Assembly: GCA_944385435.1 (NCBI GenBank)
Contig: CALWXG010000022.1
Span: 1-37,380, forward strand
DNA length: 37,380 nt
Direction: 5' to 3'
Source: an uncultured Oscillospiraceae bacterium
GTDB taxonomy: Bacteria > Bacillota > Clostridia > Oscillospirales > Oscillospiraceae
The notes under the pieces: generated by a model
Databases searched by the model: none
What the model was told of the DNA's origin: nothing
What the model saw: only the letters and a program-made list of their open reading frames with translations
Shown: piece after piece, positions 15,877-33,044 of the stretch
Layout: the number at the start of each line of letters is the position of its first letter
Numbering within the stretch: position 1 is the first letter of the stretch
Program-made: the position numbers and the translations under genes

Positions 15877-15894
15877 CTGCTTGACAAGTGAACA

Positions 15895-16010
15895 GATCTT
15901 CAGGGCAGGGTGCGATTCCCTACCGGTGGTGACAGCCCACGAGCCGCAAGGCATGATTCGGTGAAACTCCGAAGCCGACAGTATGACAAGTCTGGATGAA
16001 AGAAGATCAT
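15895..16010 (+). promoter_or_regulatory. FMN riboswitch (RFN element)
   Basis: The conserved RFN core is read directly: ATCTTCAGGGCAGGGTG, then ATTCCCTACCGGTGGT, AGCCCACGAGC, TGATTCGGTGAAACTCCG, AAGCCGACAGT and AGTCTGGATGAAAGAAGAT. The closing P1 helix is AGATCTT/AGAAGAT. It binds FMN and turns down the ribD-ribE-ribBA-ribH operon that follows, here by transcription termination at one or both of the downstream stems. Confidence 0.97.
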
Positions 16011-16047
16011 TGGATGGAAAGCAAGTGTTTTTTGTCCCGGATAGCTG

Positions 16048-25926: not shown

Positions 25927-25955
25927 TTGCATTCTCCCCTGCCATGGGGTATACT
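25927..25955 (+). promoter_or_regulatory. Promoter of the aroF attenuator/aromatic operon
   Basis: TTGCAT (25927-25932) and TATACT (25950-25955) are separated by 17 bp, about 30 bp before the leader-peptide start codon. Confidence 0.7.
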
Positions 25956-25985
25956 GAAAGTAACCATCGAACGCGAGGTATTCTC

Positions 25986-26081
25986 ATGAATCTCTGCTGC
26001 GCCTACAGCTTTACTTTCTCCTTTGGCTGGACTCGATTTACCGGGTTCGGTTCTTTTGCCATGGAGAAACAGCGGGTGTGA
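25986..26081 (+). CDS. Phe-rich leader peptide of the aroF operon
   Basis: This is a 31-codon reading frame starting at ATG 25986 with GAGG 7-8 bases upstream and ending TGA at 26079-26081. It encodes six Phe, one Tyr and one Trp in 31 residues, concentrated in AYSFTFSFGWTRF and TGFGSF, where roughly every second or third residue is aromatic. It lies between a good promoter and a terminator upstream of DAHP synthase, just as PheL/TrpL-type leader peptides do. Its stop codon abuts the antiterminator strand (26083-26091), so ribosome position would choose the RNA fold. I know no named homologue. The peptide itself probably has no other function. Confidence 0.75.
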   Translation: MNLCCAYSFTFSFGWTRFTGFGSFAMEKQRV

Positions 26082-26082
26082 T

Positions 26083-26178
26083 ATGAGTTTCCGGCCCTCT
26101 TTGCGGGGCCGCGCCGATAGACCGATGTGTGCGAAGCTCATTGACGCAACCGCTGTCAATGGGCTTTCTTTATTTTTG
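26083..26178 (+). promoter_or_regulatory. Transcription attenuator of aroF (antiterminator/terminator)
   Basis: ATGAGTTTC (26083-26091) is complementary, with one G-U pair, to GAAGCTCAT (26133-26141). An inner hairpin CGGCCC/GGGCCG (26092-26097 with 26106-26111) brings the two together. The latter strand is also the 5' arm of a terminator: AAGCTCATTGAC (26134-26145) pairs with GTCAATGGGCTT (26155-26166), followed by tctttattttt. The two folds exclude each other. A ribosome stalled at the Phe codons leaves 26083-26091 free and allows read-through. One that reaches the stop codon covers it and the terminator forms. Confidence 0.7.
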
Positions 26179-26192
26179 TAAAGAAAGGGCGG

Positions 26193-27221
26193 ATGGAACA
26201 TATGGTTATCGTCATGAAGCCGGGTACCCGGCAGGAGGACATTCAGGCACTGGTCAGGCAGTTGGAGCGGGATCACGGCGTCAAGGTGGGCATCACCAAC
26301 GGCGTAGGCTGCTCTATCCTGGGTCTGGTGGGAGACACCACCCACATCGACATGGACAAGCTCTCCATGAATCACAATGTGGAGCGGGTCATGCGGGTCC
26401 AGGAGCCCTATAAAAAAGCCAACCGCAAATTCCACCCGGAGGACACCGTGGTGGATGTGGCCGGCGTACCCATCGGCGGCGGCGCCTTTACGGTGATTGC
26501 CGGCCCCTGCTCGGTGGAGAGCCGGGAGCAGATCATCCAGGTGGCTCAGGACGTGAAGGCCTCCGGCGCGGCCCTGATGCGGGGCGGCGCCTTCAAGCCC
26601 CGCACCTCTCCCTACTCCTTCCAGGGCATGGGCACCAGCGGGCTGGATCTGCTGCTGGAGGCCAAAGAGGCCACCGGGCTGCCCATTGTCACCGAACTGA
26701 TGAGTCCGAAATACTGCCAGCTGTTCGAGGAAAAGGTGGACCTGGTGCAGATCGGCGCCCGGAACATGCAGAATTTCGACCTGCTGAAAGAAGTGGGCAA
26801 GATGTCCAAGCCCATCCTGCTCAAGCGGGGTCTTGCCAACAGCTATGAGGAGTGGATCATGTCCGCGGAGTATATCATGGCCGCCGGCAATGAAAACGTG
26901 GTGCTGTGTGAGCGGGGCGTGCGCACCTTCGAGACCTACACCCGCAATACCCTGGACCTGTCCGCCATTCCCGCCATCCGCCGCATGAGCCACCTGCCCA
27001 TTGTGGTGGATCCCTCCCATGCGGCAGGCATGTACTGGATGGTGGAGCCTCTGGCCATGGCCGCCGCCGCAGTGGGCGCCGACGGGCTGATGGTGGAGGT
27101 TCACAACGACCCGCCCCACGCGAAATGCGACGGGCAGCAATCCCTCACCCCGGAAAAATTCCAGCACCTCATGGACAAACTGCGTCCTCTGGTCAGCCTG
27201 ATGGGCAAAACCCTGGCCTGA
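26193..27221 (+). CDS. aroF: 3-deoxy-7-phosphoheptulonate (DAHP) synthase, class I-beta with N-terminal regulatory domain
   Basis: This enzyme catalyses the first step of the shikimate pathway, phosphoenolpyruvate plus erythrose 4-phosphate to DAHP. Residues 1-75 form the ferredoxin-like regulatory domain typical of class I-beta enzymes (MVIVMKPGTRQEDIQALVRQLE). The barrel has VIAGPCSVESREQI, MRGGAFKPRTSPYSFQGMG, IQIGARNMQNFDLL-like VQIGARNMQNFDLL, KPILLKRGLANSYEEW and PIVVDPSHAAGMYWM, covering metal and substrate ligands. 342 residues is normal. The ATG at 26193 (MEHMVIV) has AAAGGG close by; a second in-frame ATG at 26202 is possible. Expression is probably attenuated by the leader at 25986-26178. 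It is the first gene of the aromatic operon. Confidence 0.95.
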   Translation: MEHMVIVMKPGTRQEDIQALVRQLERDHGVKVGITNGVGCSILGLVGDTTHIDMDKLSMNHNVERVMRVQEPYKKANRKFHPEDTVVDVAGVPIGGGAFTVIAGPCSVESREQIIQVAQDVKASGAALMRGGAFKPRTSPYSFQGMGTSGLDLLLEAKEATGLPIVTELMSPKYCQLFEEKVDLVQIGARNMQNFDLLKEVGKMSKPILLKRGLANSYEEWIMSAEYIMAAGNENVVLCERGVRTFETYTRNTLDLSAIPAIRRMSHLPIVVDPSHAAGMYWMVEPLAMAAAAVGADGLMVEVHNDPPHAKCDGQQSLTPEKFQHLMDKLRPLVSLMGKTLA

Positions 27222-27648: not shown

Positions 27649-28710
27649 ATGAAAACACTCACCGTGGCCCTGCCGGGCCGGGACTATGAAATCTGTATCC
27701 AGCACGGCCTGCTCAACCAGGCCGGGACCGCCTGCAGGCAGGTCCTGCCCCATGCCACCCGCCTGTTTGTGGTCACGGACAGCACCGTCGCCCCCCTCTA
27801 CCAGGGCAAACTGGAGGACAGCCTGGCCGCAGCCGGGTTTCACACCGCCGTCCACGTGGTTCCCGCCGGCGAGGAGAGCAAGTGCGCTGCCCGGCTGGCC
27901 GAACTGTGGGAGGCCATGATGGCCGCCGGCCTCACCCGCTCTGACGCGGTGGTGGCCCTGGGCGGCGGCGTGGTGGGCGACCTGGCCGGCTTTGCCGCCG
28001 CCACCATCCTGCGGGGCGTGGACTTCATCCAGATTCCCACCACCCTGCTCTCCCAGGTGGACTCCTCCGTGGGGGGCAAGGTGGCCATTGACCTGGAGCA
28101 CGGCAAAAACCTGGCCGGCGCCTTCTGGCAGCCCCGTCTGGTGCTCATGGACCCGGAGGTGCTGGACACTCTCCCGGATCAGGTCTTTGCCGACGGCATG
28201 GCGGAGGTCATCAAATACGGCTGCATCGCCGACGGCGACTTTCTCCGTTTCCTGGAGCGGCACGCCAGCCGCGGGAAGATCATGGAGGAAATCGAGTCCG
28301 TTCTGTATACCTGCTGCGATATAAAACGCAATGTAGTGGAGGAAGATGAGCGGGACACGGGTGCCCGCATGATCCTCAACTTCGGCCACACCCTGGGCCA
28401 CGCCTATGAGCTGGCGGGACGGTACCGCCAGTGGACCCACGGTCAGGCGGTGGCCGCCGGCATGGTGCGGGAGGCGGAGCTGGGCGTCGGCCTGGGACTG
28501 ACCCCGCCCAGCCTGGCCGTGCGGATCGGGGAGCTGGTCCAGGCCTTCGGCCTGCCCCGGGCCATCTCCTGCTCCCCGGAGGAATACGCCGCCGCCATCG
28601 GCCTGGACAAGAAGGGCTCCGGGGACCGGATCACCCTGATCCTGCTGGACCGGCTGGGCCATGCCATGCTCTATCCGATGAAGAAGGACAAGCTTCTGGA
28701 TTTGCTGTAA
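27649..28710 (+). CDS. aroB: 3-dehydroquinate synthase
   Basis: This enzyme cyclises DAHP to 3-dehydroquinate, using NAD+ and a divalent metal. It has 353 residues. VVALGGGVVGDLAGFAAATILRG is the NAD-binding loop. PTTLLSQVDSSVGGKVAIDLEHGKN is the substrate/NAD region. ADGMAEVIKYGCI holds a metal-ligand Glu, and ILNFGHTLGHAYE the metal-binding His pair. GAGG precedes the ATG at 27649. It is the third gene of the aromatic operon. Confidence 0.96.
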   Translation: MKTLTVALPGRDYEICIQHGLLNQAGTACRQVLPHATRLFVVTDSTVAPLYQGKLEDSLAAAGFHTAVHVVPAGEESKCAARLAELWEAMMAAGLTRSDAVVALGGGVVGDLAGFAAATILRGVDFIQIPTTLLSQVDSSVGGKVAIDLEHGKNLAGAFWQPRLVLMDPEVLDTLPDQVFADGMAEVIKYGCIADGDFLRFLERHASRGKIMEEIESVLYTCCDIKRNVVEEDERDTGARMILNFGHTLGHAYELAGRYRQWTHGQAVAAGMVREAELGVGLGLTPPSLAVRIGELVQAFGLPRAISCSPEEYAAAIGLDKKGSGDRITLILLDRLGHAMLYPMKKDKLLDLL

Positions 28711-28791: not shown

Positions 28792-30021
28792 ATGAACGTC
28801 ACCATTACCCCCACAAAGCTTCACGGCTCCGTCACGCCGCCCCCCTCCAAAAGCCAGACCCACCGTCTGCTCATCGCCGCAGCCCTGGCCCAGGGCGAGA
28901 GCGTCATCTCCAACGTGGCACTGTCCGAGGACATCAAGGCCACCATCCGCTGCCTGAAGGAACTGGGCGCCGAGCTTCATCTGGACGGCTCCACCCTGAC
29001 GGTGCAGGGCATCGGCGCCAACGCCATGTCTCCGCTGCAGAAACTGGCCCTGCCCCAGATGGACTGCGGGGAATCCGGCTCCACCCTGCGCTTCCTCATT
29101 CCCGTGGCTCTGGCCGTCCGGGGCGGAGGCATTTTCACCGGCCACGGCCGGCTGATGGAGCGCCCCCTCCAGCCCTATTTTGACCTGTTCGACGAGAAGG
29201 GAATCTCCTATGAGCTGAAGGACGGCGTGCTCACCGTCAGCGGGCAGCTCACCCCGGGGGAATACCGCCTGCCCGGGGATGTATCCAGCCAGTTCTTCAC
29301 CGGCCTGATGTTCGCCCTGCCTCTGCTGAAGGGGGATTCCCGCATCGTCCTCACCTCTCCCCTGGAGTCCGGGAACTACGTGGAGCTCACCCGGGACATC
29401 ATAAAAACCGCCGGGGTATCCATCCGGGGCGGGGATCTGCTGGGCGGCCAGACCTACCGGCCCATCCAGGAGACGGTGGAGACCGACTGGTCCCAGGCCG
29501 CCTTCTGGTACGCCGCCCACGCCCTGGGCAACGAGCTGATCGTGCTGGGGCTCAATCCCTTCTCTCTCCAGCCGGACGCCCAGGTCTCCACCATATACCT
29601 CCAGCTGTGCCAGTCCGACGATGAGGCGGATGTGGACGTGAGCCAATGCCCCGACCTGTTCCCCGCCCTGGCCCTCATGGCCGCCATGCGCCCCGGCAGC
29701 GCGGTGACCAACATCGGCGGCGCCGCCCGGCTGCGGCTGAAGGAATCTGACCGTATCTCCGCCGTGGTGGAGGTGCTCACCAAATTGGGCGTGCCCGTGC
29801 AGGAATTTGACGACGGCATCTCCGTTACCAACGTGTGGGGCTTTTCCGGCGGCGTGGAGATCGACTGCCACAACGACCACCGCATTGCCATGATGGCCGC
29901 CATCGCCGCCACCCGGTGCAGCGGCCCCATCACCCTGCTGGGCGCCCAGTGCGTCAACAAGTCCTATCCCGCCTTCTGGGCGGATTACGAGGCCCTGGGC
30001 GGGCAGATCGTCCGCTCCTGA
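28792..30021 (+). CDS. aroA: 3-phosphoshikimate 1-carboxyvinyltransferase (EPSP synthase)
   Basis: This enzyme transfers enolpyruvate from PEP to shikimate 3-phosphate. It has 409 residues. The N-terminal PPSKSQTHRLLIAAALA is the SKS(x)THR substrate motif. MDCGESGSTLRFLIPVAL carries the conserved GxSGT-like PEP-loop, here GESGSTLRF. LPGDVSSQFFTGLMFALPLL, RLRLKESDRISAV and CHNDHRIAMMAAIAA (DHRIAM) cover the remaining active-site signatures. It belongs to the shorter Firmicutes-type EPSP synthases. GAGG lies 7 bases before the ATG. It lies in the operon between aroB and aroC. Confidence 0.96.
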   Translation: MNVTITPTKLHGSVTPPPSKSQTHRLLIAAALAQGESVISNVALSEDIKATIRCLKELGAELHLDGSTLTVQGIGANAMSPLQKLALPQMDCGESGSTLRFLIPVALAVRGGGIFTGHGRLMERPLQPYFDLFDEKGISYELKDGVLTVSGQLTPGEYRLPGDVSSQFFTGLMFALPLLKGDSRIVLTSPLESGNYVELTRDIIKTAGVSIRGGDLLGGQTYRPIQETVETDWSQAAFWYAAHALGNELIVLGLNPFSLQPDAQVSTIYLQLCQSDDEADVDVSQCPDLFPALALMAAMRPGSAVTNIGGAARLRLKESDRISAVVEVLTKLGVPVQEFDDGISVTNVWGFSGGVEIDCHNDHRIAMMAAIAATRCSGPITLLGAQCVNKSYPAFWADYEALGGQIVRS

Positions 30022-30082
30022 GCCCGCTGTGGAACCGGAGCCGTCCCCCCGCCGGGGACTGCTCCCCGGAAGGAAGTGCCCT

Positions 30083-31129
30083 ATGAACTATACCATTTTT
30101 GGAGAGAGCCACGGGCCCGCCATCGGCGTCACCCTCACCGGGGTGCCGGCGGGCATCGTCCTGGATCTGGACGAAATTGACCGGGAGATGGCCCGGCGGG
30201 CCCCCGGTCAGAATGCCTGGTCCACCGCCCGGCGGGAATCGGACCGGCCGGAGATCCTCTCCGGTTTCTTTGACGGGAAGACCACCGGCTCCCCCCTGTG
30301 TGCGGTGATCTCCAACACCGACACCCGCTCCGGCGACTACAGCCGCACCAGGGATCTGGCCCGGCCCGGCCACGCCGACTACCCCGCTTTTGTGCGCTAC
30401 AGCGGCTGCAACGACTACCGGGGCGGCGGCCACTTCTCCGGCCGGCTCACCGCTCCCCTGGTGTTTGCCGGGGCCGTGGCCAAACAGATCCTGGCCCCGC
30501 GGGGCGTACACATCGGCGCCCACATCAGCGGCATTTACGGTATTTCCGACGACGTTCCGGAGGGTTGGGCGGATCTTTGTGCCGTGGCAAGCAAGGAGTT
30601 TCCCGTACTCAATGACGAGAAGGGCGCACAGATGAAAGACGCCATCGCCCAGGCCCGGGAGGAACAGGACAGCGTGGGCGGCAGCATTGAGTGCGCCGTC
30701 TTCGGGCTCCCCGCCGGTCTGGGCAGCCCGGATTTCGGGGAGAACGCCGAGGGCATCTTCTCCCAGTATCTCTTTGCCGTCCCGGCGGTGAAGGCGGTGG
30801 CCTTCGGCGCCGGCACCGCCTTCTCCCTCATGCGGGGCTCCGAGGCCAACGACCCGCTGTATCTGGACGACGACGGCAGCGTCAAGGCAGAGCAGAACTG
30901 CGCCGGCGGCATCAACGGCGGCATCACCAACGGCATGCCCCTGGTCTTTGAGGTGACCATGCGCCCCACCCCCTCCATCGCCCGGCCCCAGTTCACGGTG
31001 GACCTGGCCCGGATGGAAAACGCGGTGCTGGAGCTTCAGGGGCGCCACGACCCCTGCGTCGTGCCTCGGGCCGTCCCTGTCATCGAGGCCGCCGCGGCTT
31101 TGGCTGCCTGCCAACTCATGGGCATCTGA
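30083..31129 (+). CDS. aroC: Chorismate synthase
   Basis: This enzyme forms chorismate by anti-1,4-elimination from EPSP, needing reduced FMN. It has 348 residues. FGESHGPAIGVTLTGVPAG is the N-terminal signature. RRAPGQNAWSTARRESD is the substrate/flavin loop, and RPGHADYPAFVRYSGCNDYRGGGHFSGRLTAP the second family signature. EEQDSVGGSIECAVFGLPAGLGSP follows. It ends ALAACQLMGI. The ATG at 30083 has GGAAGG upstream; the frame is open further upstream without homology. The last 39 coding bases and what follows are repeated 209 bp downstream. The FMN need links it functionally to the rib operon in this window. Confidence 0.95.
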   Translation: MNYTIFGESHGPAIGVTLTGVPAGIVLDLDEIDREMARRAPGQNAWSTARRESDRPEILSGFFDGKTTGSPLCAVISNTDTRSGDYSRTRDLARPGHADYPAFVRYSGCNDYRGGGHFSGRLTAPLVFAGAVAKQILAPRGVHIGAHISGIYGISDDVPEGWADLCAVASKEFPVLNDEKGAQMKDAIAQAREEQDSVGGSIECAVFGLPAGLGSPDFGENAEGIFSQYLFAVPAVKAVAFGAGTAFSLMRGSEANDPLYLDDDGSVKAEQNCAGGINGGITNGMPLVFEVTMRPTPSIARPQFTVDLARMENAVLELQGRHDPCVVPRAVPVIEAAAALAACQLMGI

Positions 31130-31398: not shown

Positions 31399-31890
31399 AT
31401 GGACTACAAGACACTGCGCCAGACCGACGAGGATGTGATCTTTCTCCCCGGCGCCCGGGTCAGCGGCGACGTGAAGCTGGGGCGCGGCTGCTCGGTGTGG
31501 TACAACGCCGTCATCCGGGGGGATGAGGCCTCCATCACCGTGGGAGAGAACACCAACATCCAGGACAACTGCACCCTCCACACCAGCTACGGTCACCCCC
31601 TGCAGGTGGGCGCCGGCGTCACCGTAGGACACAACGCCGTGCTTCACGGCTGCACGGTGGGGGACAACTGCCTCATCGGCATGGGCTCTATTGTTCTGGA
31701 CGGGGCTGTGATCGGCAGCAACTGCATTGTGGGCGCGGGAGCACTGGTCACCCAGCGCACCGTCATCCCGGAGGGATCCATGGTACTGGGCGCCCCTGCC
31801 AAAGTGAAGCGGGCGCTCACACCGGAGGAAATCGACTCCATCCGGCACAGCGCCCAAACTTATGTCAAAAAGAAGGAGTACTACCGCTGA
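31399..31890 (+). CDS. Gamma-carbonic anhydrase family protein
   Basis: This 163-residue protein is a left-handed beta-helix trimer of the gamma-carbonic anhydrase/YrdA family. Hexapeptide repeats are visible throughout (VSGDVKLGRGCSVWYNAVIRGDEASITVGENTNIQDNCTLHT). The three zinc histidines are represented by LHTSYGHPL, VTVGHNAVLHG and neighbouring positions. Carbonic anhydrase activity is not proven for most family members. AAGGAG lies 9 bases before the ATG. The TGA overlaps the ATG of pheA (TGATG), so its translation is coupled to phenylalanine synthesis genes. The reason is unknown. Confidence 0.88.
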   Translation: MDYKTLRQTDEDVIFLPGARVSGDVKLGRGCSVWYNAVIRGDEASITVGENTNIQDNCTLHTSYGHPLQVGAGVTVGHNAVLHGCTVGDNCLIGMGSIVLDGAVIGSNCIVGAGALVTQRTVIPEGSMVLGAPAKVKRALTPEEIDSIRHSAQTYVKKKEYYR

Positions 31891-33044
31891 TGGATGAACT
31901 TCAGAATCTGCGCGGGCAGATCGACCAAATTGACCGCCAGCTGGTGGAGCTGTTCCGCCAGCGCATGGATATCACCCGCCGGGTGGGGCTGTACAAGGCC
32001 GCCCGCAACCTCCCCGTCCTGGACCAGGAGCGGGAGCGGCAGGTCCTGCTGAACAAGGGGGAACTGGCCGGCGAGGAACTGCGTCCGGCCGTCACCACCC
32101 TGTTCCAGACCATTATGGCCCTGTCCCGCCGTCAGCAGCGGGACATGCTGAAGGAGCGGTCCGACAACCCCGGTCTGCGCCGGTATCTGGACGCCCGCAG
32201 CCACATCCGTCCTCAGGTGGAGCACCCCCGTGTGGTCTACCAGGGCGTCCCCGGAGCCTACAGCGAACAGGCCTGTCTCAACTTTTTCGGCCCCCAGGTG
32301 GAGTCGGAGGGGCTGGAACAGTTTGAGGACGCCTTTCTGGCTCTGAAGGAGGGCCGGGCAGACTACGCCGTGCTGCCCATTGAGAACAGCTCCACCGGCG
32401 CCATCCGTCAGATCTACGATCTGCTCAGCCAATATGAGTACTTCATTGTGGGGGAGACCACCGTCCGGGTGGAGCACTGTCTCATGGCCCTGCCCGGGGC
32501 CACCCTGGACACCATCACCCACGTCTACTCCCACGAGCAGGGCCTGTTCCAGTGTGAGCAGTATCTGGCCGGACACCCGGACTGGCACGCAGTCCCCCAG
32601 GCGGACACCGCCGGTTCCGCCCAGATGGTGGCCGCCTCCGGCGACCGGTCCAAGGCTGCCATCTGCTCGGAGCGGGCCGCCCAGCTCTATGGCCTGCAGA
32701 TCCTGGCCCGGGGCATCAACCACAACAGCCAGAACACCACCCGCTTCGTGGTGGTCTCGCCCCAAATGGAACTGCGGGAGGGCGCAGACAAGATCAGCAC
32801 GGTCTTCATCCTGCCCCATGAGTCCGGCACCCTTCATGAGATTCTCACCATCTTTGCCATCCGCGGCCTGAACCTGGTGAAACTGGAGTCCCGGCCCATG
32901 CCGGAACGCAGCTGGGAGTACATGTTCTTCCTGGAGTTCAACGGCCATCTGGATCAGCAGGTCACCGCGGACGTGCTCCACGAGCTGGCCCAGACCACCG
33001 GGGACTTCCGGGTACTGGGCAATTTCCGCTCCAATCTGGACTGA
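31890..33044 (+). CDS. pheA: Bifunctional chorismate mutase / prephenate dehydratase
   Basis: This enzyme converts chorismate to prephenate and then to phenylpyruvate. It has 384 residues. Residues 1-85 are an AroQ chorismate mutase (LRGQIDQIDRQLVELFRQRMDITRRVGLYK). The dehydratase begins at VVYQGVPGAYSEQACLNFF and includes LPIENSSTGAIRQIYDLL and the catalytic Thr-Arg-Phe motif in NTTRFVVVS. An ACT domain (VFILPHESGTLHEIL; LNLVKLESRPMPERSWEYMFFLEF) senses phenylalanine for feedback inhibition; ESRP is its Phe-binding motif. It is the last biosynthetic gene of an operon whose leader is Phe-rich, which fits phenylalanine-specific attenuation. Confidence 0.96.
   Translation: MDELQNLRGQIDQIDRQLVELFRQRMDITRRVGLYKAARNLPVLDQERERQVLLNKGELAGEELRPAVTTLFQTIMALSRRQQRDMLKERSDNPGLRRYLDARSHIRPQVEHPRVVYQGVPGAYSEQACLNFFGPQVESEGLEQFEDAFLALKEGRADYAVLPIENSSTGAIRQIYDLLSQYEYFIVGETTVRVEHCLMALPGATLDTITHVYSHEQGLFQCEQYLAGHPDWHAVPQADTAGSAQMVAASGDRSKAAICSERAAQLYGLQILARGINHNSQNTTRFVVVSPQMELREGADKISTVFILPHESGTLHEILTIFAIRGLNLVKLESRPMPERSWEYMFFLEFNGHLDQQVTADVLHELAQTTGDFRVLGNFRSNLD

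Follow-up and report, generated by a model that had tools for sequence, protein, structure and literature searches.

A conserved leader peptide with mixed aromatic codons upstream of aroF in Oscillospiraceae, a probable ribosome-mediated transcription attenuator

Introduction

In Escherichia coli, pheL and trpL are ribosome-mediated attenuators, and the DAHP synthase isozymes are under TyrR and TrpR control by different aromatic products, with one copy linked to tyrA. Attenuators have also been treated in Actinobacteria (PMC1262725), and classical attenuation by His leaders was proposed from comparative genomics in three lineages of Firmicutes (PMC9413887). According to a further report, the uORFC-13-1 motif, found upstream of aroF, contains an upstream open reading frame with a U run coding for Phe beside a terminator, and is reported there only in Acholeplasma and environmental sequences, with 24 representatives (PMC8632094).

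Here we describe the region upstream of aroF, which encodes DAHP synthase, in a 37,380-nt stretch of DNA from an uncultured Oscillospiraceae bacterium (assembly GCA_944385435.1, contig CALWXG010000022.1), hereafter the window. This locus is similar to pheL and trpL in its short frame with codons for the end products, in an antiterminator and a terminator that share a strand, and in the position of the terminator before the first gene. It differs from them in its target, DAHP synthase together with the common aro pathway, in its mixed Phe, Trp and Tyr control codons, in an extra conserved hairpin inside the frame with a near-invariant loop, and in having no Rfam model at gathering score. The His leaders of Firmicutes differ from it in their His codons, their his operons and their lineages (PMC9413887). 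The uORFC-13-1 motif resembles it, as far as the two can be compared by description only, in the Phe-coding frame, the terminator and the aroF gene (PMC8632094). We did not find a description of the aroF leader in titles and the first part of abstracts in the open-access literature, an absence that weighs little since most subscription papers lie outside this scope. As far as the searched literature goes, the novelty lies in the family of leaders and its mixed aromatic code, in the Tyr leader paired with it and in the in-frame element.

Results and discussion

Elements of the window leader

The elements of the leader and the genes downstream of it are as follows.

25927-25955, plus strand: putative promoter TTGCAT-17-TATACT (TTGCAT 25927-25932, 17-nt spacer, TATACT 25950-25955)
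25975-25978, plus strand: Shine-Dalgarno GAGG of the leader frame, invariant in 26/26 aligned same-genus leaders
25986-26081, plus strand: leader peptide frame, 31 sense codons and TGA (ATG 25986, stop TGA 26079-26081)
26083-26091, plus strand: strand 2, the 5' strand of the antiterminator, ATGAGTTTC, anchored by its motif and with partial flanking covariation
26092-26111, plus strand: spacer hairpin, predicted in the window leader only
26133-26141, plus strand: strand 3, GAAGCTCAT, common to antiterminator and terminator
26133-26178, plus strand: intrinsic terminator, stem 26133-26167 (14 pairs) and T-rich tract, with compensatory changes
26193-27221, plus strand: aroF, DAHP synthase, the putatively regulated gene (NCBIfam PRK08673, TIGR01361)
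27649-28710, plus strand: aroB (TIGR01357)
28792-30021, plus strand: aroA (TIGR01356, slightly below its cut-off)
30029-31129, plus strand: aroC (TIGR00033)
31890-33044, plus strand: pheA, chorismate mutase/prephenate dehydratase (PRK11898 above cut-off, chorismate mutase models at the N-terminus)

The original prediction had placed the leader frame with its GAGG site, both alternative pairings and the terminator correctly. Two mutually exclusive helices can form in the window, either 26083-26091 with 26133-26141 or the terminator at 26133-26167. Two details were modified: strand 2, expected directly after the stop codon, is present and begins one base past the TGA, and the letters of the proposed promoter are there, but its -35 box is weak and a promoter scan of the plus strand did not flag the site. 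Judged by sequence only, the locus has a short translatable frame whose codons specify the regulated amino acids, as well as an intrinsic terminator between the leader and the first gene, and an antiterminator sharing a strand with this terminator is clear in the window. On these features the aroF leader would belong among the known leader-peptide attenuators.

When the 330 nt upstream of aroF were shuffled with preservation of dinucleotides, 4 of 2000 shuffles produced a frame that starts with ATG, has 10-50 codons, at least 8 of them aromatic, and comes with a purine-rich site. The fold z-score was -2.39 for 26076-26180 and -2.94 for 25966-26180; for 25966-26140, which is without the 3' arm of the terminator, it was an unremarkable -1.34. 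Conservation among relatives is a stronger argument that the leader is real than these chance and fold statistics.

Distribution of the leader among relatives

A DAHP synthase match was obtained in 52 of the 60 genomes searched. The same-genus set comprises 35 loci upstream of a close aroF ortholog, from L001 (the window) to L034 plus L036; L035 (a cut piece) and G004 and G014 (no full-length close ortholog) were left out. A leader profile search placed the leader before aroF in 27 of these 35 loci, the window included, and the frame is open with an ATG in all 27. As anticipated, alignment with relatives upstream of aroF revealed conservation of the frame and of its aromatic codons in these 27 loci. 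The original prediction had also named an observation that would speak against it, the retention of the terminator in homologs that lose the frame, and this was encountered in 3 of the 35 loci (L019, L022 and L024), which by their sequence count against a strict coupling of frame and terminator. Since 27 of the 35 loci keep both elements and five (L005-L009) lack both leader and terminator, we read the terminator-only loci as lineage-specific loss. In these three congeners, constitutive attenuation or another control of aroF may apply; a skipping-rope RNA match was noted at L024 2970-3065.

In the family, the leader profile matched 52 of 400 genomes in 19 of 106 genera, and a broader profile matched 59 of 400 genomes in 20 of 106 genera, its weakest matches being possibly due to chance. 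Forty-three of the 45 matches in other genera were fetched, and the leader lies before aroF in 41 of these 43, with its stop 87-172 nt upstream; as these loci were chosen because the profile matched, this proportion shows association with aroF, not prevalence. No aroF was seen at the two exceptions, L112 and L115. A core DNA pattern was found in 59 contigs of named genomes, 56 of which carry the leader peptide. In 54 of these 56 contigs the distance from the pattern start to the downstream aroF gene is 141-260 nt, and at L117 and L160 the match falls at the edge of the stretch. The record titles of the 56 name Oscillospiraceae, Flavonifractor, Pseudoflavonifractor, Intestinimonas or Enterenecus, or else Clostridiales, Eubacteriales or an uncultured bacterium. 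The other 3 of the 59 contigs come from unrelated bacteria and have no aroF. At the level of the order, 17 of 394 genomes matched the leader profile, 16 within the family and one, marginal, outside it. At the level of the class, 2 of 291 genomes matched, the own genome and a congener, and no match was obtained outside the family among these 291 genomes. A search for further copies in the own genome gave none beyond the window leader, with one insignificant match. Altogether, the leader is real and its mechanism is, by comparison of sequences, well supported, which indicates that many gut Oscillospiraceae, including Flavonifractor plautii, may gate the entry into aromatic synthesis by a ribosome-read leader.

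Aromatic codons and the signal

The 122 pooled leaders reduce to 88 unique ones, many of which are closely related, so that the counts given for them are not independent; one of the 88 rows, L033, was set three codons early in the RNAalifold, single-helix, shuffled-linker, loop-complement and codon-table analyses. An aromatic residue is found at codon 9 in 68 leaders, at codon 11 in 59, at codon 13 in 80, at codon 15 in 87, at codon 18 in 87, at codon 23 in 75 and at codon 24 in 83. The positions of the aromatic codons are fixed while Phe, Tyr and Trp interchange among leaders. Codon 15 encodes Phe or Tyr instead of Trp in eight leaders (L028-L034, L082) and Cys in one (L025), which fits selection for aromatic codons and not for one residue. 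The window frame has six Phe, one Tyr and one Trp among its 31 codons, and the 27 leaders of its kind contain 130 Phe, 48 Tyr and 19 Trp in total. Phe had been proposed as the signal. Phe codons are indeed present in 88 of the 88 unique leaders, but Trp occurs in 79, Tyr in 72 and all three in 63, and the signal read by these codons is thus probably several aromatics rather than Phe alone.

Terminator and antiterminator in relatives

A terminator satisfying strict rules was found in 81 of the 88 leaders, against 12% of shuffles. RNAalifold on the 88 leaders recovered this terminator together with a helix inside the frame, and compensatory changes are seen in the terminator stem, one pair being C-G in 48 leaders, A-T in 24 and G-C in 14. 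The antiterminator was not found by RNAalifold on a shortened alignment of the 88 leaders, in which the linker varies in length. Its strand was therefore anchored by its own motif, with the partner unseen; the anchor is present in 82 of the 88 leaders, 6-20 nt past codon 28. Pairing of the core is a direct consequence of the way the strand was anchored. With the first anchor, the flanking pair at -1 forms in 67 of 82 leaders (shuffle mean 48.4) and that at +6 in 52 of 82 (shuffle mean 39.1), values that none of 500 shuffles reached. With the last anchor, the pair at -1 forms in 63 of 82 (shuffle mean 57.6; reached by 27 of 500 shuffles), that at +6 in 38 of 82 (32.2; 42 of 500) and position +8 in 46 of 82 (35.8; 1 of 500). 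The remaining flanks gave no excess over shuffles with the first or the last anchor. Single antiterminator helices are short, and 20 of the 88 leaders beat 95% of their shuffles. Covariation had been expected across 26083-26091, 26133-26141 and 26155-26166; compensatory changes are present in the terminator, and in the antiterminator they are partial, confined to the sides of the core and dependent on the choice of anchor, so that this sequence support is weaker than that for the terminator.

Folding with a masking ribosome

To mask the leader during folding, the general ribosome footprint was used, in which the 3' edge and the first base of the P site are about 15-16 nt apart. For each of seven aromatic stall positions in the window leader, the predicted upstream pairing was 0.98 and the predicted terminator 0.00-0.04. 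The terminator was predicted at 0.98 with the ribosome at the stop codon and at 0.78 without a ribosome. Stalling and completion had been proposed to decide between the two folds, and in the masked folding the window leader was predicted to switch in this way.

In the set of 88 leaders, the predicted upstream pairing is 0.82 when the ribosome stalls at codon 24 and drops to 0.48 when it is at the stop; it is 0.68 when ribosome-free, and with shuffled linkers it already reaches 0.59, as against 0.82 for the real leaders. The position of the stop varies from 0 to 54 nt past codon 28. In 59 leaders it lies 9-21 nt past this codon and a switch is predicted (0.82 to 0.38), and seven leaders with a later stop behave similarly (0.78 to 0.40). 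In 22 of the 88 leaders the stop lies 0-6 nt past codon 28 and no switch is predicted (0.83 to 0.79); a terminating ribosome would fall short of the antiterminator strand there. An ATG follows a few bases after the stop in early-stop leaders such as L084, L087 and L092, and restart may therefore play a part in them. At equilibrium and full length, stalling leaves the terminator with a value under 0.5 in only 5 to 14 of the 88 leaders, the window being one of the clear cases, and the mean terminator value in the stalled state is 0.82-0.92. Since the terminators of most relatives would win at equilibrium even when the ribosome is stalled, the switch in these relatives would need kinetics, that is, a decision made during transcription.

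Proposed mechanism

Given these comparisons, we think it very likely that the aroF leader is a ribosome-mediated transcription attenuator of the trpL and pheL kind. A leader-peptide attenuator before aroF had been the central claim of the original prediction, and it is supported by the conserved frame and its aromatic positions, the compensatory changes in the terminator, some covariation at the sides of the antiterminator core and the masked folding of the window leader. In such an attenuator, the ribosome would translate the leader as RNA polymerase transcribes strands 2, 3 and 4. When the charging of aromatic tRNAs is low, the ribosome would stall within codons 9-24 and leave strand 2 (26083-26091) free to pair with strand 3 (26133-26141), so that no terminator would form and aroF-aroB-aroA-aroC...pheA would be transcribed. 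When charged aromatic tRNAs are plentiful, the ribosome would reach the stop at 26079-26081 and cover strand 2, strand 3 would pair with strand 4, and transcription would end near 26175. The control codons being mixed, with Phe in all leaders, Trp mostly at codon 15 and Tyr in many, a shortage of any aromatic may open the attenuator. The frame, the aromatic positions and the terminator are seen by comparison of sequences, and the antiterminator less firmly; translation, stalling, tRNA charging as the signal and a single transcript across the aro genes are what we infer from them. The leaders allow the inducing amino acids to be predicted operon by operon.

The in-frame element CGATTTA

Three further features lie inside the frame.

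26025-26052, plus strand: in-frame hairpin, from codon 14 to the first base of codon 23 (RNAalifold, 88 leaders)
26034-26040, plus strand: CGATTTA, near-invariant, covering codons 17, 18 and the first base of 19 (88 leaders)
26032-26040, plus strand: candidate strand 1, CTCGATTTA, whose possible pairing to the antiterminator strand leaves one base bulged

The in-frame hairpin shows a few compensatory pairs, and two of its 11 pairs are broken in 32-35 of the 88 leaders. Transcriptional pausing has been treated elsewhere (PMC6336406). About 11 nt separate the 3' end of the hairpin from the downstream TG of codon 26, a dinucleotide present in 84 of 88 leaders, and a role as RNA polymerase pause hairpin is possible on the basis of a general spacing rule.

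Irrespective of codon boundaries, each base of CGATTTA is identical in 87 or 88 of the 88 leaders. All 88 have CGA as codon 17, and 87 begin codon 19 with A even though its residue may be Met, Thr, Ser, Asn, Ile or Ala. Among the Arg codons of 74 aroF genes from this set, CGA accounts for 2.2%, and none of ten invariant Arg columns in these genes is as uniform as codon 17. Candidate strand 1 offers a run of at least 6 pairs with the antiterminator strand in 69 of the 88 leaders, against 27% of base-shuffled regions, and no covariation test over the 88 leaders supported this pairing. Pairing of this kind may explain part of the constancy of CGATTTA. Kissing by the AUUUA loop was considered and rejected, since the rest of the leader seldom contains a complement of the loop (TAAATC in 4 of 88, TAAAT in 12 of 88).

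The protein is conserved here too, with R17 and G22 in all 27 same-genus leaders and R17 in 81 of 81 aligned family members. Such conservation of non-aromatic residues exceeds the need of a pure codon counter and is what an arrest peptide would lead one to expect. TnaC arrests the ribosome in response to tryptophan. By analogy, the core G-W-[TA]-R-F-x-G-x-G-[YF]-F would arrest on free aromatics, and an arrest near the stop would mask strand 2 and repress the operon. This reading gains, and the attenuator reading loses some ground, from the weaker antiterminator covariation with the last anchor. Conservation at the RNA level is however at least as strong as that of the peptide, as seen in CGA at codon 17 and in the constant A before a variable residue 19; moreover, Phe, Tyr and Trp interchange at codon 15 and the C-terminal end is variable, and we regard an arrest-peptide switch as distinctly improbable.

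The near-invariant loop and the rare CGA codon, together with the terminator that stands without a frame in three congeners, would also suit a frame that is incidental, with a conserved RNA element (in-frame hairpin, AUUUA loop and terminator) binding a protein or a ligand. This is highly improbable in our opinion, as the ATG frame is kept open throughout the same-genus leaders with its GAGG site, codons 9, 11, 13, 15 and 23 vary yet mostly stay aromatic, different aromatic leaders precede DAHP synthase elsewhere in the order, and the aroF leaders searched match no Rfam family at gathering score.

CGAUUUA and the core R-F-x-G-x-G-[YF]-F might form a programmed slow or arrest site that integrates the three aromatic pools, with a separate Tyr leader on DAHP synthase 2-tyrA splitting the pathway between two sensors read by ribosomes; we consider this speculative and rather unlikely. 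If it were true, the rare CGA codon, the hairpin loop and the nascent chain together would make the leader more than a codon counter. The leaders collected here offer comparative material for studying the near-invariant CGATTTA inside the frame.

A Tyr leader before the second DAHP synthase

In the own genome, just upstream of 40,112 on contig C7 (L037), and at L235, a Tyr-rich leader and a terminator are followed by a second DAHP synthase, DAHP synthase 2, and a tyrA-like gene. The Tyr-rich frame of the own genome has a strong Shine-Dalgarno site and a terminator, and the gene directly after DAHP synthase 2 matches prephenate dehydrogenase models, all below their cut-offs. Within the genus the Tyr leader frame was recovered in 26 of 27 loci, L214 being cut by the contig end, and a terminator follows in 26 of the 26 leaders. 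In 25 of the 27 loci the aromatic content is attained by no more than 5 of 100 shuffles, L220 being scored on another frame. The 26 Tyr leaders contain 131 Tyr, 9 Phe and 2 Trp in total. Adjacency of tyrA was seen in the genus at L037 and L040 and not at L039; among the 12 loci besides L235, four order relatives gave weaker matches and six none (L039 included), in a search where most loci offered only about 500 nt downstream.

The own genome probably controls DAHP synthase 2 and the tyrA-like gene by a separate Tyr leader, as read from the sequence. One genome would then divide control between a mixed Phe, Trp and Tyr leader for aroF...pheA and a Tyr leader for DAHP synthase 2-tyrA, the correspondence of encoded amino acid and end product resting on two operons of this genus. 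As with the E. coli isozymes, the DAHP synthase copies would be separately controlled; unlike them, both copies here have a leader frame and a terminator.

Other families of the order and T-boxes

The survey of other families of the order covered 17 loci from 15 genomes; in 10 of them, DAHP synthase is preceded by an aromatic-rich frame whose content no more than 5 of 100 shuffles attain, and 9 of these 10 have a strict terminator.

L041, L042, L043, L047, L049 and L227-L231: aromatic-rich leaders before DAHP synthase in other families

An aromatic-rich leader with a GTG start was observed at L048, outside this count of 10. Leader peptides at DAHP synthase look common across the order on this sequence survey. 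The suggestion that such a leader would be exceptional for Clostridia, where T-boxes or TRAP-like devices had been expected, is therefore weakened by these 10 loci; it keeps some ground in two order relatives that have a T-box upstream of DAHP synthase (L044 1598-1848 and L045 1180-1444).

These two T-boxes, with 14 T-box matches in the own genome, 6 of them above the cut-off, are the reason to consider a T-box or another known riboswitch before aroF. No Rfam match at gathering score was obtained in the aroF leaders of the window, L002-L034, L036 and six other loci of the family, nor did any Rfam leader family, those for Phe, Trp and His among them, reach it in the window, and we give this explanation a vanishingly small chance. 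The leader peptide itself has no significant Pfam, NCBIfam or Rfam match, its 27 members giving only insignificant ones in Pfam and NCBIfam. Of the frames behind nine T-boxes of the own genome, one had no match and eight were matched, to valS, acetolactate synthase, a tryptophan-transporter-like gene, leuA, a transporter, metQ, aspS and hisS. This genome does employ T-boxes, yet the search at aroF gave none. Elsewhere in the window, an FMN riboswitch lies at 15892-16011.
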